33,528 bases of DNA from the NCBI GenBank assembly GCA_020627685.1, contig JAHDGK010000035.1:20191-53718 (forward strand), in the 5' to 3' direction. The notes beneath the pieces were generated by a model that searched no databases, was not told the DNA's origin, and saw only the letters and a program-made list of their open reading frames with translations. This stretch comes from Granulosicoccus sp. GTDB taxonomy: Bacteria; Pseudomonadota; Gammaproteobacteria; Granulosicoccales; Granulosicoccaceae. Positions 22,951 to 33,528 of the stretch are shown here, piece by piece. Position numbers and translations under genes: made by a program. Positions within the stretch are counted from its first letter, which is position 1, and every line of letters starts with the position of its first letter.

Positions 22951-25197
22951 ATGCCAAATCATGATTACCGTCGAGATTTAATGGGCTCTGCCCGTGTATC
23001 TCCGCAGCAGCCCGTCGAAGCTGGCTCGTGGCAGAGTTATACCCTGATCTATACAGCGGGAAAATTTGGTATTGATGACCAGGGTGGGGTAAAGCTTGCG
23101 TTTCGTACCCATTCGGACATGACCCCATTACAAATGGACGACCCCACAGCACCCGGTTACTTAACGGTCGAGACGTCCAACAATGCGTTGATTGAAGTCG
23201 ATATCAGCTACAAGCGAAACTTGAGGCCATGGGGACATAGCATCACGGTTCTATGTAAGGAGTTTCTTAAACCGGGAGATGAAATTACGTTTCGTGTGGG
23301 TGACCAACGACAAGGGTCTCCCGGCGTTCGTACTCAAACACATATAGAGGCTGAACATCAGTTCCGAATAACGGTTGATGCTTTCGCAACAGTTGATTAC
23401 ACACCTCTGGAAGAGGATAAACAACCATTCATCACTATCGTACCGGGCAAGGCTTCCGTGTGGAAAGCGCTATTGCCCACGTTACGGCAAGTCGGACAAC
23501 CTTTTCGGTTTATCGTTAAACCTGAAGATCGTTGGGGAAATCCATCTGATCAGTTTACTGGCGTCGTGTCTTTGAAAGCTAACAACCCAATAAAAGGGTT
23601 ACCTGAAAAGGTCACTTTTAATAGCGGCGATTTTTCCGTCGTGCTGGATGATTTAGTGATAGACGAAGAGGGCGACTACCACATTGACGTACTGATTGAT
23701 GATGCTGTTGTTGCTCGCTCAAACCCTTTACGTATTAAGATCAGTTCGCCCTTTAGTCACTATTGGTCAGACATGCATGGTCAATCAGGTGAAACCATCG
23801 GGTCAGGGTCAGCGCGAGATTACTTCTTTTTTGCGAAATACCGTTCCTTTGTCGATATCACAGGACATCAAGGTAATGACTTTCAAATTACTGATGACTT
23901 CTGGTCGGAGATAAACAGCCTAACCGCCGAATTTAATGAAGAAGGAAAATTTCTAGCCCTTCCCGGATACGAATGGTCTGGAAACACAGGGTTAGGCGGT
24001 GATCACAACGTATGGTACCGAACAGAAGGACGCCCCATATATCGCTCTTCACGAGCAATCATTCGGGATAAGACCCGGCCGGAATCTGATTGTCACGATG
24101 TCACTGAATTATTCGAAGCGCTGGAAGGAGAGGATGTGCTTGTCGTGCCGCATGTTGGTGGTCGATTTGCTGATGTAACCTATGCGCACGATGCGCGCGT
24201 TGAACCCTCGGTTGAAGTACATTCCAGTTGGGGAACCTTCGATTGGATTGTTCATGATGCTTTAGCGATGGGTTATCGCATTGGTATCGTTGCAGGGTCC
24301 GATGGCCACAAGGGGCGGCCTGGTGCGTCATATCCTGGTGATGCGAAATTTGGCTCCTACGGTGGTCTGACTTGTCACCTACTACCTGAATTGACGCGCG
24401 ATAGTTTGTTCAAAGAATTTCGTCAAAGACACCATTACGCCACCACGGGTTGCCGATTGTATCTGGCAGCACAGATGAATTATGGGCAGCCCGCTAAGAT
24501 CTTTTTCAGGAACCCATCATTGGGCAATGACGAGCATACACTTAGCCAAACGGCAATGATGGGCGACATCGTTCAAACCGACCAAGAGACTGCTACGTTC
24601 AGTTTGGATGTCCTAGCGCACGCACCGATTGAAAAAATTGAACTCTATGATGGGACAAAACGAATAGAGTGCATTAGGCCGTATTCAGAATCTGACTTGG
24701 GTGCGCGCTATCGAATAAGTTGCAAGGGGCAGGAAACACGAGGCCGTCAGCGCTTGGTCAAATGGACGGCCTCAGCTAATTTGACGGGCGCTACCATTGC
24801 CAGAATAAAAGCGACTAACTTCTACAACCCTGATAAGCAGCCGGAGCTTACATCTGCAACGTGCGTGGAATGGACCAGCGTTACCACAGGTGGTGCACAA
24901 TCGATTGATCTATGGGTAGAGAACGAAACCGCTGGTTCCTCAATAGACATTAGAACGAATCAAGGCGTTATGAACATAGCGTTAGCAGATGTCACTATTG
25001 ACGGTACAGAAGTTTCGTGTGGCGGCATCGATAAAGCACTGGTCATACAACGTCTGCCCGAGCAACTCAACGAGACACAGCTGTCAATAAGCCGTGATGT
25101 GACGATTCCCGCGAAAGGCGATAGCGTGATTTACGCGCGTATTACTCTAGAAGACGGGCACGTTGCCTGGACAAGTCCGGTATACAGTTTTAAGTGA
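22951..25197 (+). CDS. DUF3604-domain protein with PHP-like metal site
   Basis: 748 residues; ATG with AAGGG about 9 bases upstream; no signal peptide. Residues ~1-265 form two or more beta-sandwich domains. From Tyr271 the DUF3604 core begins with YWSDMHGQSG (Asp274, His276), then ITGHQGND (His306), PGYEWSG, VVPHVGGR (His401), EVHSSWG (His424) and GSDGHKGRPG (Asp451, His453). These His/Asp sets match the metal-binding pattern of PHP/amidohydrolase-like phosphoesterases. The C-terminal ~190 residues are again beta-rich. Biochemical function of the family is not established as far as I know; a hydrolase acting on a small organic ester or amide is a guess. It converges with a TetA-like pump 7 bases downstream. 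Confidence 0.82.
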   Translation: MPNHDYRRDLMGSARVSPQQPVEAGSWQSYTLIYTAGKFGIDDQGGVKLAFRTHSDMTPLQMDDPTAPGYLTVETSNNALIEVDISYKRNLRPWGHSITVLCKEFLKPGDEITFRVGDQRQGSPGVRTQTHIEAEHQFRITVDAFATVDYTPLEEDKQPFITIVPGKASVWKALLPTLRQVGQPFRFIVKPEDRWGNPSDQFTGVVSLKANNPIKGLPEKVTFNSGDFSVVLDDLVIDEEGDYHIDVLIDDAVVARSNPLRIKISSPFSHYWSDMHGQSGETIGSGSARDYFFFAKYRSFVDITGHQGNDFQITDDFWSEINSLTAEFNEEGKFLALPGYEWSGNTGLGGDHNVWYRTEGRPIYRSSRAIIRDKTRPESDCHDVTELFEALEGEDVLVVPHVGGRFADVTYAHDARVEPSVEVHSSWGTFDWIVHDALAMGYRIGIVAGSDGHKGRPGASYPGDAKFGSYGGLTCHLLPELTRDSLFKEFRQRHHYATTGCRLYLAAQMNYGQPAKIFFRNPSLGNDEHTLSQTAMMGDIVQTDQETATFSLDVLAHAPIEKIELYDGTKRIECIRPYSESDLGARYRISCKGQETRGRQRLVKWTASANLTGATIARIKATNFYNPDKQPELTSATCVEWTSVTTGGAQSIDLWVENETAGSSIDIRTNQGVMNIALADVTIDGTEVSCGGIDKALVIQRLPEQLNETQLSISRDVTIPAKGDSVIYARITLEDGHVAWTSPVYSFK

Positions 25198-25204
25198 CGG
25201 CGTT

Positions 25205-26401
25205 TTAGTGTGCAGGCTTCCACCGGCTAAACAGAATAAACGCCACAATCACCGACAACGCTGACACCAAAAAGGGGGCTGAGGGTAGATACAAGGGTGT
25301 GTCGCTCTTGGTAAAAAAGCTGAACACCTGTGTCATTACAAACGGGCTGATGATAGTCGCAAGCGCCGTCAAGGAACTCATGGCCCCTTGCAATTCACCT
25401 TGTGCGTTTTCGGGAACACTATTACTCATTAATCCTTGTAAGGCTGGCACCGCAACGGCACTGAACACACTAATGGGCAGAAACGCAAAGACATGCCACG
25501 TTTCAGTCATTAACGGATAGGCTAGAAATGTCAGTAAGTGCATGCACATGCCGAACAAGGCCGTAACTTTCTCACCGAAACGAGCGAGTATGGGTCTGAT
25601 TAATACGCCTTGTACAATCACGATACCAAAGCCATAAGCTGCGAGTGACAAGCCAACCATGCGAGCATCCCAGTTGAACTGTGCACGCCCGAAAAATGCC
25701 CAGATGGATGGGTACACAAAGAATGCGATACTCAGCAGTAGGAACACCAATAGCATGGGCATAAGCCCCGGCAGTTTTTTCATTTGCTTGAAAGCACCGA
25801 AAGGACTCGCCCGCCGCCAGTCAAACGTGCGTCGTTTATCCTTACTCAGCGATTCAGGTAGAACAAAGTAACCAAACAACATATTGATGAATGCGAGCGC
25901 CGCTGCCGCATAGAAAGGCGCACGTGCCCCGTACTCTGCCAGCAAACCGCCCAACATGGGGCCTAGTACAAAACCCACTCCAAACGCCGCTCCTAAGAGT
26001 CCGAAGTTTTTCGCCTTGTCCTTAGCGGTGGAAACGTCTGCCATATAAGCGGCAGCGGTGGAATGCGTAGCGGCTGTGATACCACCAATAAAACGCCCGA
26101 CAAACAAAAGCCAGAGTGTCTGTGCGAAAGCCATTAACAGATAGTCGAGTGACATAACCAGCAATGCAATCAACAATACTGGCCTGCGCCCATAGGCATC
26201 GGACAAGCCCCCTACAGTGGGAGAGAATAGAAACTGATTAATGGCGAAAACGACGGTTAACGCGCCACTCCATAGTGCTGCCTGACTGAGATCAACGTTC
26301 CCGACCTCCTGAATTAGGTCTGGCATCATCGGCATGATGATGCCGATGCCCATGGAGTCGAGCACCACGGTTATAAAAATGAAGATAACAGGTAGACGCA
26401 T
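25205..26401 (-). CDS. MFS drug/metabolite:proton antiporter, TetA-like
   Basis: 398 residues with twelve hydrophobic segments. The MFS signature GGLSDAYGRRPVLL lies after helix 2 and motif C, GAAFGVGFVLGPMLGG, in helix 5, which marks antiporters. MGIGIIMPMMPDLIQ at the N-terminus is typical of the TetA/MdtG-like branch. It would exchange a cytoplasmic compound for protons. Tetracycline resistance should not be assumed: many environmental members of this branch transport other molecules. It diverges from an EamA transporter gene (79 bases). Confidence 0.85.
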   Translation of the reverse strand: MRLPVIFIFITVVLDSMGIGIIMPMMPDLIQEVGNVDLSQAALWSGALTVVFAINQFLFSPTVGGLSDAYGRRPVLLIALLVMSLDYLLMAFAQTLWLLFVGRFIGGITAATHSTAAAYMADVSTAKDKAKNFGLLGAAFGVGFVLGPMLGGLLAEYGARAPFYAAAALAFINMLFGYFVLPESLSKDKRRTFDWRRASPFGAFKQMKKLPGLMPMLLVFLLLSIAFFVYPSIWAFFGRAQFNWDARMVGLSLAAYGFGIVIVQGVLIRPILARFGEKVTALFGMCMHLLTFLAYPLMTETWHVFAFLPISVFSAVAVPALQGLMSNSVPENAQGELQGAMSSLTALATIISPFVMTQVFSFFTKSDTPLYLPSAPFLVSALSVIVAFILFSRWKPAH

Positions 26402-26480
26402 AGTTATACAAAATTCGCATTTAGTTAGGCGTTTCCGCCGTTTGGGCAGTATAGCTGAGCTAGCTTAGTATCATTCAGCT

Positions 26481-27440
26481 ATGCTACGAGCCATGACAAA
26501 CACGGCATCTTCGGCTCCATCCACTGACAACATTCTCGTAGGTGTTGTGCTGATGCTTGGTTTTTGCGTAACCGCACCCTTGCTGGATGTTGCGGCTAAA
26601 CTGGCGTCCTCCAGTGTGCCGGTAGGGCAGATTACCGCTGCTCGCTTTATGATTCAGTGTGCGCTCATGGCGCCGTTTATAAAAGTCATGGGGTTGTCCT
26701 TACACGTGCCTCGCGCGCAATGGCTGCCACTGATATCAAGAGCACTACTCTTGCTCGTTGCAACCTTTTGTTTCATTGCCGCGATCCGTGTAATGCCGCT
26801 TGCCGATGCATTAGCCATCGTGTTCATAGCGCCTTTCATTGTTTTGTTATTCGGTAAATTTTATTTAGGTGAAGATGTCGGCCCGCGCCGTATTGCAGCG
26901 TGTATGGTGGGTTTCGTTGGCGTCCTGTTCGTAATCCAACCAAGCTTCGCGGCCTTTGGTGCGGTGGCACTAATTCCACTGGGTACTGCAGTCGCTTTCG
27001 CTTTCTACATTCTTGTCACGCGGGGTCTGTCGCGCCAGTTGCATCCGGTGGCTTTGCAATTCCATACCGGTCTGGTCGCTAGTTTATTTTGCCTACCAGC
27101 GCTACTGCTGGCCCAAGGCTCCGGCTCCGATTTATTCGATCCCGTTATGCCGGTGGGAATTGCCTGGCTATGGCTCTTTGGTGCTGGATTCTTCGCTACC
27201 GTGAGTCACATGATGATGACTTACGCATTGTCCTTAGCGCCATCTGCCACCTTGGCTCCGTTACAGTATTTTGAATTACCAGTAGCCACCATCTTCGGTT
27301 ATCTGGTTTTCCAAGACTTTCCTAACGCGCTTAGCCAAATGGGCATAGCCATTATTATCGGTGCCGGGCTGTATATGATTCACCGGGAGAGAGTGACCGC
27401 CAGAGAGTTGATGACTGAGCGAGCAGCTCCGCCTATTTGA
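26481..27440 (+). CDS. EamA-family (DMT) transporter
   Basis: 319 residues, or 315 from the ATG at 26493; neither start has a clear Shine-Dalgarno. Ten transmembrane helices fall in two EamA repeats, the first ending in the usual FGKFYLGEDVGPRR. The second includes HMMMTYALSLAPSATLAPLQYFELP, the conserved core of this group. It is probably an inner-membrane exporter or facilitator of a small metabolite; substrate unknown. It is only distantly similar to the other EamA gene in the window, so these are not recent duplicates. The LEA14-like lipoprotein follows after 47 bases and may share the transcript. Confidence 0.82.
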   Translation: MLRAMTNTASSAPSTDNILVGVVLMLGFCVTAPLLDVAAKLASSSVPVGQITAARFMIQCALMAPFIKVMGLSLHVPRAQWLPLISRALLLLVATFCFIAAIRVMPLADALAIVFIAPFIVLLFGKFYLGEDVGPRRIAACMVGFVGVLFVIQPSFAAFGAVALIPLGTAVAFAFYILVTRGLSRQLHPVALQFHTGLVASLFCLPALLLAQGSGSDLFDPVMPVGIAWLWLFGAGFFATVSHMMMTYALSLAPSATLAPLQYFELPVATIFGYLVFQDFPNALSQMGIAIIIGAGLYMIHRERVTARELMTERAAPPI

Positions 27441-27487
27441 TGGTTTGTTAATTTCACAACTGTGTTCTGCTTGGACTCTTTGACGAT

Positions 27488-27976
27488 ATGAATCGATATT
27501 TATTACCCTTTACAGCCTTTATCATCGCCTTGCTCAGTGGCTGTGCCACGCTGTCGGGCGTCGACAGACCCAATGTACAGGTAGTCGGCATGGAGGCCCT
27601 GCCCAGTGAGGGATTAGAAGTCCGCTTCGAATTAAAACTTCGTGTGCAAAACCCTAACGAAACACCGCTGGCGTACGACGGTATGTCAGTTCGGCTTGAT
27701 CTTGATGGTAAGGGCCTTGCCAGCGGCGTTAGCAATATCGCTGGCGAAATTCCACGCTTTAGTGACGCGGTATTAACTGTGCCCGTCAGCATCTCCGCAT
27801 TCAGCGTTGTTCGCCAACTGTTAGCACGAGCCGACGCAATGGGGAAGGAGGGAGGCACGAATCAGCCAATAGCCTACTCGCTAACTGGAAAGCTGGGTGC
27901 ACCTGAAGGCAGTTTTGGCGCTGTTCGATTTAGCGATAAGGGTGATTTAAATTTATTTGCCTCTGAGAATGAATAG
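27488..27976 (+). CDS. LEA14/WHy-domain lipoprotein
   Basis: 162 residues. The signal peptide ends in a lipobox, LLSGC (Cys19), so the mature protein is lipid-anchored. The body is a single LEA type 2/WHy beta-sandwich: VQVVGMEALPSEGLEVRFELKLRVQNPNET with the NPN motif, then an amphipathic region and a C-terminal strand YSLTGKL. Such proteins are linked to desiccation or membrane stress, but the role in bacteria is poorly defined. The ATG has GACG only as a weak binding site. It converges with the broken metallo-beta-lactamase gene, 29 bases apart. Confidence 0.82.
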   Translation: MNRYLLPFTAFIIALLSGCATLSGVDRPNVQVVGMEALPSEGLEVRFELKLRVQNPNETPLAYDGMSVRLDLDGKGLASGVSNIAGEIPRFSDAVLTVPVSISAFSVVRQLLARADAMGKEGGTNQPIAYSLTGKLGAPEGSFGAVRFSDKGDLNLFASENE

Positions 27977-28005
27977 CGTTTTTCGACAACGACTAGTGGC
28001 CGATG

Positions 28006-28582
28006 CTACAGCTCAATCGTTTTTAGGAGATCGCCTAAATCGAGGATTTGACCGGGTTTAGGTGTTTCGATTATACCTGTCGCTGCGGCACGTTCAGCTG
28101 GCTCGTTAATGGGTTCGTCAGTCAGTGAGAAGGTACCCAAATGCATTCCTATTGCGCGCTTAGCTCCCACATCTTGCACCACTTGCAGTGCTTCTTCCGG
28201 ATTCATATGGGCGGCCTTCATAAACCAGCGGGGGTCGTAGGCGCCAATAGGTATTAAGGCTAGGTCGACCTTGCCCAGCCGTTGTGCGATGGCTTTGAAG
28301 TCGTCTGAGTAGCCACTATCCCCAACAAACAAGGTGCGAAGGCTCGGTGAGTCGATGAGAAACCCCGCCCACAGCGTTTTGTTCCGATCGAACGGGCTCC
28401 GGCTTGTCCAATGTTGAACAGGAACCACATGCATTGTGATATTACCGATTGCCGTTAGTGTTGACAAAAGTACCGTCTTGCCGGTGATGGGCAGGTGCGT
28501 TTTCTTCCAGCTCTATAATTGTGGTACAACCGGCAACAAGGCCTGCCAGAAGGATTGTGGGTCCGGCTGAGCGTTCTGGCGC
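28006..28582 (-). pseudogene. Broken MBL-fold (UlaG/NAPE-PLD-like) lipoprotein gene
   Basis: Two pieces of one gene are visible in different frames. The 5' piece (28582 to the stop at 28442) reads a lipoprotein signal end, ILLAGLVAGCTTIIE, and then APAHHRQDGTFVNTNG, the usual start of this MBL-fold family, but it has no start codon. The 3' piece (28467-28006) holds the C-terminal half: GNITMHVVPVQHW, NKTLWAGFLI, FVGDSGYSDDF (metal Asp) and IGMHLGTFSLTDEP (metal His). The middle, including the HxHxDH zinc motif and roughly 170-190 residues, is missing, and the frames do not match across the join near 28445-28456. An ORF from TTG at 28467 exists but would encode an inactive half-protein. The 5' end is overrun by the DUF222/HNH gene. 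Confidence 0.8.
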
Positions 28583-30228
28583 TTACTTGTGTTGCTGGAT
28601 AATAATTGATAAGTGTTCCGCGTATTCCTCAACTGGTAATAACCAGACTTTGGTTCCGCACACTCCACACGTGTGGAGCGGTCTGGACCCAATCCATAGT
28701 GATGGACAGGTTTTGACAGTTTTTGACGGGTTTCAGAATCACGCTGAGTTGGAATATCAGCTTTACACGTTTTAGTATAATCATTGACGTAAGCATGATG
28801 TCTTCCACGTATGTCGCGTCCGTCATTATCAAACACTCGAAACCGGTAAGTTGTCGGCGATAGCTTGCGTATCTTGTTGAAAGACTTATTATTATTTCGC
28901 AGCTCCTTTTCGAAGTCGAACATACTGGCATCGCTAACGTGCTGTTGCATAGAAAACTGTTCGTTTAAGCTGGTTTGATTATTGGCAACTGCCCGGATGC
29001 TATAGCCACCTTCGTGTACCAGTGTATGGTGGTAATGACAAAGACACACCCCATTCTCTACAGAGGTTGTTCCACCATTGGCCCAATGAACAATATGGTG
29101 AATCTGCAAGTTTTGGGTATGAGTACAACCATAAAATTGACAATGCTGATCGCGATCTTTAATAGCGCGTGTCATGGCGTTTGGCCAAAGTCTTGATTTT
29201 CTACCGATGTCTGTCGGTTCGCCGTCAGTTTTAGTGATAGTGCTGATACTGCAATCACAAGCAATGCGCTTTGCAGTTTCTTGTGCGATGGTGCTTGCAC
29301 CTTTTACAGCGGGTCGTTTCGAAGGTAGGTAAGAAGGAGTTGGATCTTCAGGTACGGCTTCAGATGAGGCTTCAGTTGCCTCCATTGATACGATGACCTG
29401 GTACCGATCGGCTGTGGCTATATCTCTGCCAGCCACTTGTAAGCTAGTTTCGGCCATCAGAATGGCTGCATCGGCACGGCGCTGTGAGATCTTTGTCTCT
29501 GAACTATCTGAGTCTAATTGATTTAATGAATGTTCTACGCTATTGAGAAAAGCTTGAGCTATTTCAGGTGGCAATATTAATTGAATACGGGTACTGCCGG
29601 TGCTTAGCTCATCCCACAAAAGGGCGCGGGCGTCCCATTGTTTTAGGGCTCTTTGGTTTTCGGATTCTCCACTATCATCTTGCGCCCATCGGAATTCGTT
29701 GCACAGCCTTTTAACTTCTGTGACAGATGCATCGAGAGCAGCATGGCATAGTGTTTTCTCATTATCCGCATCGGCAACATTAACTATCAGGCGAATTTTG
29801 GACCAGGAGAGTTTGCCAGCTCGGAACAGTGCGGTTGTGGTGGGTAGCAATCGAAGTTTACGCCCTACGCGTAAGAACTCCCAACCTAGCTGCATGCTGA
29901 TGCCCAATTCAAGATTCATCCAGGCGGCGCAATGACTAGCACCGGATGTTTTCCAGCCTTCTAGTTCATCGTACCGTACTAGAAGTTCGAGTAAATCGGC
30001 GTGGGAGGAGGTGATTTCTTGTGAGAGTGCCTTTAGGCGGTGGTGGATAGTCGCCTCATCGGAAGGCATGGCTTTAGAGTTTGTTGGCTTTGTGGGGCTC
30101 TCGATACACGCCATAGCGAGTCGCACGTTTTGCCCGAATTTCTGCCGTTCTGTTGTACCGAATGAACTCATGCCGAATGATGTTTGGCTATGAGAGTTTA
30201 GGGTGTTTAGTCTTGATGAGTCTTCCAT
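28513..30228 (-). CDS. DUF222/HNH endonuclease (13E12-repeat family)
   Basis: 571 residues. An N-terminal DUF222-type helical region (~60-260) is followed by an HNH nuclease at ~355-410: CQFYGCTHTQ, then LQIHHIVHWANGGTTSVENG (His377/His378) and CLCHYHHTLVHEGGY, with Cys and His residues for a structural zinc. The family includes the REP13E12 repeat proteins of mycobacteria, suspected to be mobile. ATG with GAGG about 8 bases upstream and an extended -10 box 27 bases upstream. The last ~16 residues are encoded by DNA that in another frame is the signal peptide of the broken MBL lipoprotein, so the tail is run-in, not family sequence. The protein looks otherwise intact; the ~160 residues after the HNH domain are not recognised. 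Confidence 0.85.
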   Translation of the reverse strand: MEDSSRLNTLNSHSQTSFGMSSFGTTERQKFGQNVRLAMACIESPTKPTNSKAMPSDEATIHHRLKALSQEITSSHADLLELLVRYDELEGWKTSGASHCAAWMNLELGISMQLGWEFLRVGRKLRLLPTTTALFRAGKLSWSKIRLIVNVADADNEKTLCHAALDASVTEVKRLCNEFRWAQDDSGESENQRALKQWDARALLWDELSTGSTRIQLILPPEIAQAFLNSVEHSLNQLDSDSSETKISQRRADAAILMAETSLQVAGRDIATADRYQVIVSMEATEASSEAVPEDPTPSYLPSKRPAVKGASTIAQETAKRIACDCSISTITKTDGEPTDIGRKSRLWPNAMTRAIKDRDQHCQFYGCTHTQNLQIHHIVHWANGGTTSVENGVCLCHYHHTLVHEGGYSIRAVANNQTSLNEQFSMQQHVSDASMFDFEKELRNNNKSFNKIRKLSPTTYRFRVFDNDGRDIRGRHHAYVNDYTKTCKADIPTQRDSETRQKLSKPVHHYGLGPDRSTRVECAEPKSGYYQLRNTRNTYQLLSSNTSKRQNAQPDPQSFWQALLPVVPQL

Positions 30229-30254
30229 GACTTTGCCTCATTTTATGAAGTTTT

Positions 30255-30263
30255 ATTATAACA
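30255..30263 (-). promoter_or_regulatory. Extended -10 promoter of the DUF222/HNH gene
   Basis: On the minus strand TGTTATAAT, a TGn-extended perfect -10 box, lies 27 bases upstream of the ATG, giving a leader of about 20 bases with a GAGG binding site. No -35 box is needed for such a promoter, and none is clear. Confidence 0.55.
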
Positions 30264-30286
30264 TTGATAGGTCGCCGTTCCAGTCA

Positions 30287-30430
30287 TTAACTGGCAATAT
30301 GTACAGTTATAATATATGGGTGAAATAGATCGTAGATTCGATTGTTTCCTCCATCGAATAGTGTCAACCGAAGCATGTCATTCACTTCTTGGATTTCACG
30401 TTCACGCTCCTTTAGCTGCCCCCAAAGTTC
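30287..30430 (-). pseudogene. Possible gene fragment, 47 codons, upstream of DUF222/HNH
   Basis: An open frame bounded by stops reads like coding sequence: a charged helix (ELWGQLKEREREIQEVNDML) and then LTLFDGGNNRIYDLFHPYI. It has no start codon at its head and no Shine-Dalgarno. I do not recognise it. It may be a remnant of a gene damaged when the DUF222 segment arrived, or chance. The rest of 30229-30494 holds only the promoter of the DUF222 gene. Confidence 0.25.
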
Positions 30431-30494
30431 TTAATTAGTTTTGCAGTTCCCAAGATTTATGTGGAAGCAGGGTAAGCCATGAATATTATTCTTG

Positions 30495-31475
30495 CTAACC
30501 ATGCCAGCTAGGTAACGGGTCATATCCCAGTTGCAGCAATGCATGCGGGACATCGACAAAAACCCAGTTCTCAACAAGAAGCTCGTCTTCTCGCCGCCAC
30601 CAGTCGCAGACACGCATGAAGATTCGTTCTTGTGTGGGGCCTTGTCCGAGGAATGGTTTTACGTTGATACCTGTCACGGATGGCCAACCACCCGAGCACG
30701 TATAATTTCCGTCGCCATATCTTGTGAAGTGCTTGGTCAACCCGTTGTTTGAGGATCCACCTGACCATCCGTTAAACTGTGATTCAAAGGGAACTTGAAA
30801 CGACGCAAACTCGTCGATACCCACAAAGCTTCCAAATGCGCCCGGGCCATACCACATCATGTTTTTGTGCCAATAGGGTCGCCACGCTTCATCCTTGGTC
30901 GCCAACCCAGCGAGCATATTCGTCACGATCTGATAACTGCGTTGACCCTCGGCAGGATCGGTTGCGTTCATCATGACGCCGTCTCTGCTTGCAGGGCCGT
31001 GGATCAGACCGGTATAACCGCGTGACAGACCCGGCCCCATGGCCAATGGCCATTGATTGCAGGCAATCATCAGTTCGGGTATGTCCAAGTAGATATAGCT
31101 TTCTACAGCTATACGGTTCTCAATGCGATGGAACTCACCATAGCGTAAATAGCTCAGCGTGCCTGTGGCCTTCAGACCGATCCAGTCCTGAGCAAAGCGT
31201 CCGACATAGTAACCGGTGGAACTAATCCAGTTTTGTCCTTCAAACTGGCCAGCCATGAATATATCGTCGCGTCTGTAAAGCCCTTCAAAGGCTTGTTGTA
31301 ACGGACGCAAGAATTTATCGACGTATACGTCTGCCCCTGCCAATTCATTGAATGGATGGACAACGTTTATGCTGGCGTCTTCAGCGAAAAACTCTGAAAC
31401 TGCGCCTGAAAAATCGCTTGGGTGCTGCAGGGCCTCTGCGTAGCGCAGATAAAGTGAACGGTCATGTGGTGACAT
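30495..31475 (-). CDS. Double SnoaL/NTF2-like domain protein, paralogue 1
   Basis: 326 residues from the ATG at 31475, chosen for AAGGAA seven bases upstream; the frame extends to 31526 without one. The protein appears to be two SnoaL-like cone domains in tandem. The first (~10-150) has FFAEDASINVVHPFNEL and ends in VESYIYLDIPELMIA. The second (~190-320) has YWHKNMMWYGPGAFGSFVGI, GDGNYTCSGGWPSVTGI and ends LVENWVFVDVPHALLQLG. Single SnoaL proteins are cyclases, hydratases or binding proteins; I know of no assigned role for this double form. There is no signal peptide. It is clearly homologous to the divergent gene at 31678, sharing long blocks around WYGPG, FQVPFE, GDGNY and CDWWR. Confidence 0.75.
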   Translation of the reverse strand: MSPHDRSLYLRYAEALQHPSDFSGAVSEFFAEDASINVVHPFNELAGADVYVDKFLRPLQQAFEGLYRRDDIFMAGQFEGQNWISSTGYYVGRFAQDWIGLKATGTLSYLRYGEFHRIENRIAVESYIYLDIPELMIACNQWPLAMGPGLSRGYTGLIHGPASRDGVMMNATDPAEGQRSYQIVTNMLAGLATKDEAWRPYWHKNMMWYGPGAFGSFVGIDEFASFQVPFESQFNGWSGGSSNNGLTKHFTRYGDGNYTCSGGWPSVTGINVKPFLGQGPTQERIFMRVCDWWRREDELLVENWVFVDVPHALLQLGYDPLPSWHG

Positions 31476-31677
31476 GATATTTCCTTGAGCGCACCTCGAG
31501 CAAACGCGTGGCAACGCTCTCGGCAATTGTACGAGCAGATTGAAGGCTTATTGTCCCCATGCGCTGACTATAACGGTTTAGACCTGGTAGTCAATGGAGG
31601 TTAATATTTTGCTGCGAGCTATGACGGAAACTGCAGTATCATCTTTGCTGGATTGGCCCTCATTCTAACTTCACAGC

Positions 31678-32697
31678 ATGCCTACACGATCTCCCCGTCC
31701 CGAAATGGGTATTGCGACAGAACAGTCCCATACCAACAAGTTGCGCTACAAATCGTTTCTGAATAGTTTCGAGCAGTCATCAGCTGTTGCAATAGAAAGC
31801 GCTTCGCACGCGTTCTTTGAAACGGATGCTCACATCGATATTGCCCATCCGATAAACAAAATGACGGGTGGCACAGGCTATTTCGAGGATTTTATACATC
31901 CGTTGTATCAGGCATTCTCTGGCTTACAACGTCAGAACAGCATTTTGCTCGGTGGACAGTATCTCGATAGTGAATGGGTAACCACAACGGGTTACTACAC
32001 TGGTCATTTTAACAAGCCCTGGTTGAACATAGCACCCAGTCATAATTTGGCCTTTCTACGTTTCGGAGAGTTTCACCAAATAAAAAACGACAAGGTTGTC
32101 GCTTCACAGATTTTTTTAGGAATAGCAGAGTTGATCATTGCACTTGGACGGTGGCCACTGGCGCCTAGTCAAGGTTATGAAGGTGTCGTACCGGGTCCTG
32201 CGACACAGGACGGTCTTGCACTCGCTCCTGCCAACCGTGAGCTTTCGACACGTTCCGGCAAACTGGTTGAGTCAATGCTCATGCAACTTACCTCTGAAGA
32301 TGCCGCATGGAGGCAGTACTGGGATGAAAAAATGCTGTGGTATGGCCCCGGAGGGTTCGGTTCATATGCGACCATCGACGCGTTCCATGATTTTCAGGTT
32401 CCGTTCGAGAAGACGTTTGAAGGGTGGGGCGACGGTCGTCAAGACGGTATTAGCGGTGTCGGCATTCAGTGCAAATCAGGCGATGGCAACTATGCGTTTT
32501 TAAGTGGCTGGCCAGCCATTACCGGCATACAACGCCAACCTTTTATGGGTATAGACACAACCAACACGCGAATCTATCTCAGGGACTGCGACTGGTGGCG
32601 ATGTCAGAACGGCAAGATTATGGAGAACTGGTGCATGGTTGATACGCTTCATCTGGCAAAACAACTGGGGCGTGATGTTATTGAGGAGATTGGGTAA
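31678..32697 (+). CDS. Double SnoaL/NTF2-like domain protein, paralogue 2
   Basis: 339 residues. The ATG at 31678 directly follows an in-frame TAA but has no Shine-Dalgarno; ATG at 31705 (residue 10) is an alternative. It has the same two-domain layout as paralogue 1, about 40% identical by eye: TTGYYTGHF and FLRFGEFHQI in the first half; KMLWYGPGGFGSYATID, FQVPFEKTFEGW, GDGNYAFLSGWPAITGI and RDCDWWR in the second. There is no signal peptide. The 200 bases between the two paralogues are a shared divergent control region with no gene. Divergence of this depth points to an old duplication with both copies kept, perhaps for different ligands or as a heterodimer. Confidence 0.75.
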   Translation: MPTRSPRPEMGIATEQSHTNKLRYKSFLNSFEQSSAVAIESASHAFFETDAHIDIAHPINKMTGGTGYFEDFIHPLYQAFSGLQRQNSILLGGQYLDSEWVTTTGYYTGHFNKPWLNIAPSHNLAFLRFGEFHQIKNDKVVASQIFLGIAELIIALGRWPLAPSQGYEGVVPGPATQDGLALAPANRELSTRSGKLVESMLMQLTSEDAAWRQYWDEKMLWYGPGGFGSYATIDAFHDFQVPFEKTFEGWGDGRQDGISGVGIQCKSGDGNYAFLSGWPAITGIQRQPFMGIDTTNTRIYLRDCDWWRCQNGKIMENWCMVDTLHLAKQLGRDVIEEIG

Positions 32698-32812
32698 CTA
32701 GTCATCGTATGTTGCCAAGGAAACCTTGAGGTAGTGTTTCAGCGGATCTCGGATATCACGACGTGGCGAAATTAATTGAATACGTGTGCTGTCGGTGCTT
32801 GGCTCATCATCA
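32698..32812 (-). pseudogene. Remnant of a second DUF222 gene
   Basis: The stretch 32764-32808 matches 29569-29613 inside the intact DUF222 gene at 39 of 45 bases, in the same orientation. Translated, DEPSTDSTRIQLI stands for DELSTGSTRIQLI. The homology ends sharply on both sides. The frame continues to a TAG at 32698-32700 with unrelated codons (RRDIRDPLKHYLKVSLATYDD), perhaps the end of some other lost gene. Confidence 0.65.
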
Positions 32813-33212
32813 TTGATGTTCAGTATTTATCGTTTTTTCCCATTCAATAAGACAAAACCAAGCATGTTCGTACAGAATTGACCATTACCAGTTATTAGAT
32901 GAAGTATTTTTTAGGTTTGTTAAGTCTTGGGTCAATGAACTAGAAGCGAAAAGTATTCGGGTAAATGCTTCGTTTCCTGTGTTGATACAATGGAAAGCTG
33001 TGTATCACAACAGATTTAGTAGTACGCATAATTCAATACCTATCATTAGTTATAGGTTCTTGTAAAATTGCGTAGTATAAAAAATAAGCCTGTATCCTAT
33101 TGTTATTACAAGGTATACTTTTTGCGCCGATTGGTTTCAGACTGTAATCGATTTCTAATTAGCAGGATTTTTGCAATCCCGCAAAAGTCGTCGATTACAT
33201 GGAGTAACCGAT
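32813..33212. other. AT-rich gap before the restriction-like gene
   Basis: 400 bases without a supportable gene. An 82-codon plus-strand frame (32817-33065) is open but has no ATG. Part of it looks protein-like (HYQLLDEVFFRFVKSWVNEL, then EAKSIRVNASF), so it could be gene debris. A 6-bp inverted repeat sits at 33038-33043/33052-33057. TATACT at 33114-33119 could be a -10 box for the nuclease gene. The nested inverted repeats at the end are listed separately. Confidence 0.35.
33143..33199. repeat. Nested inverted repeats upstream of the nuclease gene
   Basis: Perfect 9-bp arms TGTAATCGA (33143-33151) and TCGATTACA (33191-33199) enclose 39 bases. Inside are two stems that exclude each other: GGATT/AATCC (33165-33169 with 33175-33179) and TTTTGC/GCAAAA (33169-33174 with 33181-33186). 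The right outer arm ends just before the GGAG ribosome binding site at 33201. It could be an operator pair, an attenuator-like leader or a recombination site. Confidence 0.5.
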
Positions 33213-33528
33213 ATGGATTTTGTTGATAAGTTTCGTGCCCTAGCTGAGACCGCTGAGAATTCGCGGGACAGACTTCAGACCGAAGAAGCCACCAAGAACG
33301 CGCTGGTCATGCCGTTCATCATGAACGTGCTGGGTTATAACGTATTTGACCCTAAAGTAGTAATCCCCGAATTTATTGCAGATGTCGGCAACAGGAAAGG
33401 GGAGAAGGTTGACTACGCAATTCTAAATAAATCTCAAGAAGTTATTTTTCTGGTTGAGTGCAAGCGTATTGGCGATGAACTATCCCTTAAACACGCGCAG
33501 CAATTGATCCGTTATTTTCATTCGAGTA
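33213..33528 (+). CDS. Type I restriction-like nuclease (HSDR_N family), N-terminal part (partial)
   Basis: The first 105 residues are inside the window and the gene continues past its right edge. ATG with GGAG 8 bases upstream. The sequence QTEEATKNALVMPFI, then LGYNVFDP, VVIPEFIADVG, GEKVDYAIL and IFLVECKR fits the PD-(D/E)xK fold of the restriction R-protein N-terminal domain, with catalytic Asp in VDYAI and Glu-x-Lys in ECK. I recall many standalone proteins of about 350 residues with this start, annotated type I restriction endonuclease but lacking the helicase. Whether a modification subunit follows cannot be seen. Confidence 0.8.
   Translation, partial: MDFVDKFRALAETAENSRDRLQTEEATKNALVMPFIMNVLGYNVFDPKVVIPEFIADVGNRKGEKVDYAILNKSQEVIFLVECKRIGDELSLKHAQQLIRYFHSS

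Follow-up and report, generated by a model that had tools for sequence, protein, structure and literature searches.

A DUF222/HNH nuclease gene of Granulosicoccus ending in the signal-peptide DNA of a decayed lipoprotein gene: a probable deletion scar

Genes and features at the locus

The window – the whole stretch of 33,528 nucleotides of Granulosicoccus sp. DNA analysed here – carries on its minus strand a DUF222/HNH gene (28513–30228), which encodes 571 amino acids between an ATG start and a TAG stop (28515–28513). DUF222 (PF02720) is the only Pfam match of the protein, over residues 82–360 (60.9 bits against a gathering score of 24.4), and a search of the source genome returned a single DUF222 match, the window gene itself. 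Residues 358–425 (28954–29157, minus strand) form what we identify as a C-terminal HNH nuclease motif: the matches to solved HNH parts are weak (IscB, E 0.0012; McrA, E 0.014), PHROG HNH families are also matched and the H-N-H residues, as judged by eye, are present. A structure prediction of the protein was of no use (mean pLDDT 34.3).

Upstream lies the 5' non-coding part of the DUF222 unit (30229–30358, minus strand), shared with another DUF222 copy in the relative G006 (L062 1–323) and in part with a remnant there (L062 2164–2267). It includes, 62 nt before the ATG, the SOS (LexA) box-like site CTGTACATATTGCCAG (30291–30306, minus strand), which agrees with 7 of 8 consensus positions. Within the ORF, a perfect 16-bp palindrome, CTCCAC-ACGT-GTGGAG (28663–28678, minus strand), encodes STRVE in frame and represents a stem-loop of the family; Rfam found nothing at gathering scores in window positions 27000–31500. 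HNH residues, SOS-like site and stem-loop are all preserved in the gene, which to judge from its sequence is probably still expressed and may yield an active protein. By its codon substitutions, the HNH part is under purifying selection relative to the copy on G006 contig C60 (dN/dS 0.08, dS 0.65, 170 codons), with a dS close to that of a flanking gene at 26481–27440 (0.685), which we take to encode a transporter. The first 64 DUF222 codons, compared with the copy on C77, give a higher dN/dS (0.28).

Further along the window stand two divergent ORFs (30495–31526, minus strand; 31678–32697, plus strand) that appear by eye to be paralogues of each other; the former has no NCBIfam match at E 0.01.

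The junction with the lipoprotein gene

The final 16 codons of the nuclease gene consist of the signal-peptide DNA of an MBL-fold lipoprotein gene, read out of frame, and the two genes have this stretch (28513–28563, minus strand) in common as C-terminal tail and signal-peptide region – an overlap that the preliminary description had proposed and that both the ORFs and the G006 orthologue bear out. In the other frame, the DNA under the tail reads GPTILLAGLVAGCTTIIELEENAPAHHRQDGTFVNTNG, where the orthologue reads MLRPTLLLASLLASCTTTTEPEENAPAHHRLDGTFANTNG; the intact gene in G006:C77 (L062) begins MLRPTLLLASLLASC. The stretch encoding GPTILLAGLVAGCTTIIELEENAPAHHRQDGTFVNTNG and the C-terminal MBL half have their open frames out of register with each other; the DUF222 stop codon, which lies inside the signal-peptide DNA, is in the frame of the MBL half.

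What remains of the lipoprotein gene extends on the minus strand to about 28006, in two pieces. The first (28451–28563; 85% to G006:C77 1790–1902) comprises the signal peptide, a lipobox recognised by eye and the start of the mature part; the second (28025–28454; 90% to G006) is the C-terminal half, in a frame disjoined from the signal peptide, and Lactamase_B_2 scores 89.1 bits on 28006–28467. Homology to G006 ends at 28563, equivalent to L062 1902 and to the second base of codon 3, and the first 7 nt of the gene, ATG included, are absent from the window. The loss of the start codon had been noticed beforehand, as had the end of a rearrangement, placed near 28560; the end is real, but the breakpoint is 28563/28564.

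There is also a second lesion: 461 bp are missing out of frame from the middle of the MBL gene, with the 4-bp microhomology GCCG at both ends (28451–28454, where two BLAST pieces, reaching L062 1332 and 1790, overlap). Because of this deletion, the signal-peptide and MBL frames are no longer joined. Where a functional MBL-fold lipoprotein gene has a start, a signal peptide and a full MBL domain in one frame, the window copy has no start codon, has lost its mid-domain and lies in two frames: it is a pseudogene. At synonymous sites the MBL remnant (28025–28454) is closer to G006 (dS 0.37) than the flanking gene is (0.685), which hints at an exchange of the lipoprotein gene among lineages that would make its history harder to trace.

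The end of family similarity, which the preliminary description had suggested seeking in DUF222 homologues, was located by comparison with the copy on G006 C113 (L070): homology is secure to about 28606, with weaker similarity that may extend toward 28581, and about 42 bp of unassigned DNA (28564–28605, minus strand) separate the secure part from the lipoprotein homology. DUF222 tails vary between copies, and the 16-residue tail is unique to the window copy. Its conservation in DUF222 homologues elsewhere, named beforehand as the finding that would speak against a fusion, was seen in no other compared ORF, and among the ORFs of the compared loci the best other match (7 of 16 residues) falls in non-DUF222 ORFs.

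Deletion or insertion

An uninterrupted lipoprotein gene, likewise sought in relatives as had been proposed, is present in G006, where about 100 bp of the DUF222 unit's 5' end lie 254 bp upstream of it, in the orthologous place. This upstream DNA matches the region upstream of the window's DUF222 gene (30256–30385) at 79% over 130 bp (E 6e-25), and its nearer part matches the DNA upstream of a second G006 DUF222 copy at 78% over 72 bp (E 3e-7). Across 46 genomes, with matches accepted to an E of 0.001, the sequence hit itself and those two places only; as only DUF222 upstream regions were matched, we read it as a remnant of a DUF222 unit.

Beyond the unit, the window is collinear with G006 over the same 30256–30385 and in a 27-bp match at 30420–30446 (minus strand; 85%, collinear with L062 2318–2344), weak on its own, which is possibly a remnant of the 3' end of the gene that flanks this site in G006, presumably of the TetR type. 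The missing 5' end of the lipoprotein gene is not there: G006 1895–2170 gave only a 15-bp chance hit in window positions 28401–30600, and a comparison of window positions 24500–33528 with G006 matched C77 only at 1–323, 903–1332, 1790–1902 and 2164–2295. No target duplication could be defined, and the source genome offers no further DUF222 copy for comparison. As the left flank (25203–27436) is orthologous to a different G006 contig, C38, the wider neighbourhood may differ between the two genomes too.

We consider the junction to be a deletion scar, with a probability of roughly 0.7, because of the 5' remnant in G006, the collinear outer flank and the absence of a lipoprotein 5' end beyond the unit. 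The frames, breakpoints, microhomology, remnant and collinear flank can be read directly from the alignments, and from them we infer an order of events. An ancestor shared with G006 would have carried, on one strand, a DUF222/HNH unit – a promoter region with an SOS-like box and an ORF with its 3' stem-loop – between the MBL-fold lipoprotein gene and the TetR-type gene. In the window lineage, a deletion would have run from the 3' part of the DUF222 ORF to codon 3 of the lipoprotein gene, leaving the nuclease ORF to read 16 out-of-frame signal-peptide codons until a stop; a separate 461-bp deletion at the 4-bp microhomology would have gutted the MBL domain. G006 would have met the opposite outcome, keeping the lipoprotein gene intact and losing the DUF222 body except for about 100 bp of its 5' end. 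A remnant upstream of an intact gene fits such a later deletion between two neighbours; as the 254 bp before the G006 lipoprotein gene yielded no 3' DUF222 sequence, the deletion in G006 is one that we infer. Also weighing against this scenario are the 42 bp between the two homologies, for which it does not account, the lower dS of the MBL remnant and the higher dN/dS of the first 64 DUF222 codons.

A direct jump of the unit into the lipoprotein gene's 5' end is improbable. The break within codon 3 would suit such an event, as would the dispersal of DUF222 genes and the intergenic place of one copy in the relative G023 (L075), which measures about 2 kb less in G024, G012 and G018. The remnant upstream of the intact G006 gene speaks against it, and an insertion predicts the lost ATG and the DNA upstream of it on the far side of the unit, where they are absent. 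Of the earlier suggestion that the HNH segment had moved into the lipoprotein gene, the rearrangement end and the dispersed, repeated character of the gene stand and the move into the gene does not. An assembly artefact is very improbable: DUF222 copies do lie at contig ends in relatives (for example G006 C60, C77 and C113), where the repeat breaks assemblies, and the eight named relatives' loci come from metagenome-assembled genomes (MAGs) of Granulosicoccus or Granulosicoccaceae, but with one DUF222 match the source genome offers no second copy to mis-join, and the DNA on either side of it comes from one and the same neighbourhood in G006.

A dispersed family with an SOS-like box

DUF222 matches were found in 28 of 115 genomes, the source genome included, and in 25 of the 27 within the genus. 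The largest number is that of G023, a single 7.78-Mb contig with 11 matches, fragments among them, spread over 10 places. Five G023 copies, when aligned, are homologous from just before the SOS-like box to the last ORF codons and then diverge. At the L075 site, the same two flanking genes, recognised by homology, stand 151–155 bp apart in G024, G012 and G018, against about 2155 bp in G023; the flanks are too diverged for placing the ends and hence any target-site duplication. A possible second empty site, where two other genes are neighbours with no DUF222 ORF between them (G006 C113 compared with G016 C64), is weak, the G006 contig beginning inside DUF222. Class-wide the family is rare: at least 8 of 370 genomes have it, our own and G017 included, a lower bound since some Granulosicoccus genomes, G014 for instance, escaped the family-profile search.

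Upstream of DUF222-type ORFs (65 regions, seven from outside the genus), at least 7 of the 8 positions of CTGT-N8-ACAG are matched in 46, against 8.7% of random pieces, and all 8 in 19, against a background of 0.26%. On this sequence evidence, DUF222/HNH genes in Granulosicoccus are dispersed and mostly preceded by an SOS-like, putative LexA, box.

Two copies in G023 appear decayed. L080 (G023:C1 4656939) seems to consist of the N-terminal part with a palindrome of the 3' type close behind, and L227 (G023:C1 4431460) of the 3' end alone. The copy on G006:C60 (L069) leaves the family at the apex of the stem-loop, at about 2395–2410 (CACTCCAC|GTGTAAGC).

An in-frame stem-loop near the 3' end

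Close to its 3' end, the ORF of many DUF222 copies contains a palindrome whose apex is AC-N4-GT. Stem arms in copies other than that of the window include CACTCCAC/GTGGAGTG, CAGTCTAC/GTAGACTG, GAGGCTAC/GTAGCCTC, AGGATAC/GTATCCT, TATAC/GTATA and GCGTTTAC/GTAAACGC; joint changes of the arms alter amino acids on both sides (S..D/E, A..A, D..S, Y..Y, F..N). Hairpins with this apex and arms of at least 5 number 28 in 18.7 kb of ORF tail, against 23 in the 269 kb of these loci outside the tails, where some fall within the HNH core. A tail hairpin is present in 23 of 55 ORFs – 20 of the 28 closest to the window copy, a group for which we set the limit at 49% identity or more, and 3 of the remaining 27. 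The fragment L070, which has no HNH core, stands outside the 55, and the C-terminal set comprises copies whose match reached query residue 440.

Pairing was assessed in an alignment (A2) of 29 copies, chosen by hand because their tails have a T-x-V/I/G site and entered with one site each; the site of L158 was re-chosen by hand, the rule's pick being wrong, and L171 kept the non-pairing site that the rule gave. The alignment speaks to pairing among motif-bearing copies, the frequency of the motif being the 23 of 55 given above. Paired cells make up 83.6% against 72.2% after shuffling, and the covariation score is 0.328 against 0.142, with neither value reached in 500 shuffles; pairs changed on both sides are less striking (6 against 4.2, reached by 31 of 500), and versions slid along the alignment pair at 57.8% at most. 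When right arms were permuted over 40 sites, none of 20,000 permutations had as many pairs, and between 0 and 36 of 20,000, depending on arm length, had as many wholly perfect arms; the sequences in all these statistics are related, and the events behind them are not independent. Mapped on a 27-row tree, the nine labels given to the arms, broken ones counted, require nine changes where the minimum is eight. Synonymous Ser and Val positions covary as well, TCC going with GTG in 3 of 3 cases and TCT with GTA in 13 of 14 (Fisher p 0.006). Pairing is incomplete in L073, L084, L086, L090, L091, L152, L163 and L164. Taken at the level of sequence, the shared place and the co-changing arms suggest upkeep rather than decay.

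Tandem 15-bp repeats of the stem motif occur in the DUF222 tail of L043 (G012:C3, 1409–1467) and also of L091 and L164, as STHVE four times over or as repeats of the DSTRID type.

Outside the genus, the final 450 nt of DUF222 ORFs showed no hairpin of the Granulosicoccus type, and a Rhodococcus plasmid copy has no hairpin of 7 bp or more. Among the papers found on DUF222 and 13E12, no title or opening of an abstract describes such a hairpin, which is not proof of its absence.

Whole-ORF comparison revealed different in-frame palindromes in the DUF222 genes of three other gammaproteobacterial genomes (G140, G306 and G212). An identical 20-mer, GACGTTACCGCGGTAACGTC, lies in one linker of the G140 and G306 genes, and in G212 a variant of it occurs in five copies, in a different linker that precedes the HNH core: ACGTTAC-CGCG-GTAACGT in L295, the covaried ACGTTCC-CGCG-GGAACGT in L294, shorter arms in L283 and L289 and one mismatch in L292. 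These five copies are paralogues that have the palindrome in common by descent. In 247 kb of G212, partly chosen around DUF222, one copy of the palindrome lies far from its contig's DUF222 ORF, just after a gene that we take to be NhaA-like. In two G212 copies of the gene (L202 and L203) another palindrome follows the HNH core at a distance of 278 nt. The linker of the same five paralogues also contains an inverted repeat, in frame, with arms like AAAGGGGTCGGATC.ATTTTTTC, around a spacer that takes opposite orientations in L283/L289 and L295/L294 and is open in frame both ways – apparently a REPIN-like, invertible coding segment.

Palindromes outside DUF222 genes

The pattern TCTACNNNNGTAGA was searched for in ten genomes with a reversed-pattern control; the genome-wide search concerned this arm type alone. 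G023 has the most sites, 20 (control 4), ten of them in DUF222 ORFs and ten outside; five of the latter have an ACGT loop and one other is the DUF222 3' relic L227. G002 has 7 sites (control 2) and G007 has 6 (control 4), each with five outside DUF222, all with ACGT. No excess over the control (in brackets) was seen in G000, with 1 site (4), G006, 3 (4), G009, 2 (7), G012, 6 (7), G018, 1 (2), G024, 3 (4), or G026, 3 (12); arms of 8–9 occur at two G026 sites and one G024 site, and also at one G000 site with an unrelated loop. Like palindromes stand alone elsewhere in the genome clearly in G023 and G002 and less so in G007. By chance, 7.8 Mb should contain an exact 14-mer about 0.03 times, and thirteen of the solos have in common the 18-bp palindrome ACTCTACACGTGTAGAGT.

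Some solos lie downstream of 5S rRNA genes and some between convergent ORFs. Among the 21 palindrome sites in 18 of the 20 fetched loci (L240 and L241 were left out), 16 fall outside ORFs of at least 90 aa. Three solos lie within long ORFs (L225, L228 and L232), where the palindrome is possibly native coding sequence. In samples of G000 (0.33 Mb) and G023 (0.40 Mb), degraded palindromes showed no excess over shuffled ones, and three palindrome patterns had 0 matches in viral contigs.

Two further settings deserve mention. A group I intron identified by Rfam (L229 1453–1729, G002:C53) carries ACTCTACACGTGTAGAGT, with the palindrome at 1537–1550, and its G023 homologue, L266, does not; by our reading of the sequence the intron splits a tRNA gene, and ARAGORN found no tRNA in five solo loci, this one included. 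In G007 and G026, palindrome pairs, some degraded (L234 1515–1575, L235 1477–1577, L237 1483–1543 and L236 1009–1049), flank a shared spacer (AAAA.CGTGACGTAGTTCC) and make up a BIME-like element of about 60 bp.

Possible roles of the stem-loop

The stem-loop could be a passive REP-like guest, a regulatory hairpin or a recognition site of the nuclease. It may be unconnected with the nuclease, the linkers and tails of DUF222 genes being merely tolerant hosts for in-frame REP-like palindromes, a plausible reading to which we give somewhat less than even odds: the linker in G212 houses a REPIN-like inverted repeat (arms with GGGGTCGGATC) as well, 16 of the 21 sites in the fetched loci lie outside ORFs of at least 90 aa and REPs within genes are known (PMC3733652), but a passive guest accounts poorly for the same relative place in many divergent copies and for arms that have repeatedly changed together.

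It is less likely that the stem-loop has a regulatory role, as operator or RNA hairpin, for its own gene and a few more. Perfect 18-bp palindromes at few sites per genome, with degraded versions in no excess over the 0.73 Mb of G000 and G023, would suit such a role; the several solos that sit in a group I intron, downstream of 5S rRNA or where two genes converge would not, nor would the loops, which are non-palindromic in many gene copies. More speculatively still, and with a rather low probability, the DUF222/HNH nucleases and the palindromes would be cognate partners: in every subfamily the gene would keep, in frame within a linker or tail, a copy of the hairpin that its own protein recognises, and SOS-induced cutting there would drive gene conversion and the spread and loss of genes and solos alike. 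If this were true, the family would form a mobile system of the REP kind, with an HNH nuclease in the place of the tyrosine transposase, and 13E12 would gain a function.

Known systems and significance

The closest likeness is to 13E12/REP13E12, which also combines DUF222 with HNH but is mycobacterial, from a phylum different from that of the window. It has several dispersed copies per genome; the source genome has one match, G023 as many as 11. LexA control has been proposed for it (PMC4181829) and, according to one recent paper, gene conversion between its copies is frequent, it contains a putative prophage attachment site and its regions are without a defined biological function (PMC13061034). 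The REP/BIME/RAYT systems share with the present family short dispersed palindromes, mostly outside genes, some inside them and some paired round a spacer, and a gene associated with its own palindrome (PMC2817692, PMC3733652). They differ in their tyrosine (HUH, IS200/IS605-like) transposase, where the window protein, by its Pfam match, is DUF222/HNH; in numbering more than 100 palindromes per genome, against at most 20 TCTACNNNNGTAGA sites here (G023); and in having two inverted palindromes flanking the gene, whereas DUF222 ORFs have one near the 3' end and none was found with hairpins at both ends.

Rickettsia palindromic elements are in-frame palindromes in coding DNA; those described here are in frame too, but in one nuclease family. 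A homing endonuclease gene lies inserted in its own recognition site, which it interrupts. The window palindrome is intact within the ORF. The C-terminal half of the window's lipoprotein gene belongs to the MBL-fold (Lactamase_B_2) family, and both remnants match whole orthologues, from which the window copy differs in being a pseudogene. Deletion-born gene fusions join two gene fragments in the same manner (PMC12803068), but the fusion in the window adds only 16 out-of-frame codons.

As a scar of gene decay, the fusion is ordinary. The family may matter more, as DUF222/HNH (13E12-like) genes are repeated and recombining, and a covarying coding stem-loop, solo palindromes and the in-frame palindromes of other families offer a concrete, testable substrate.
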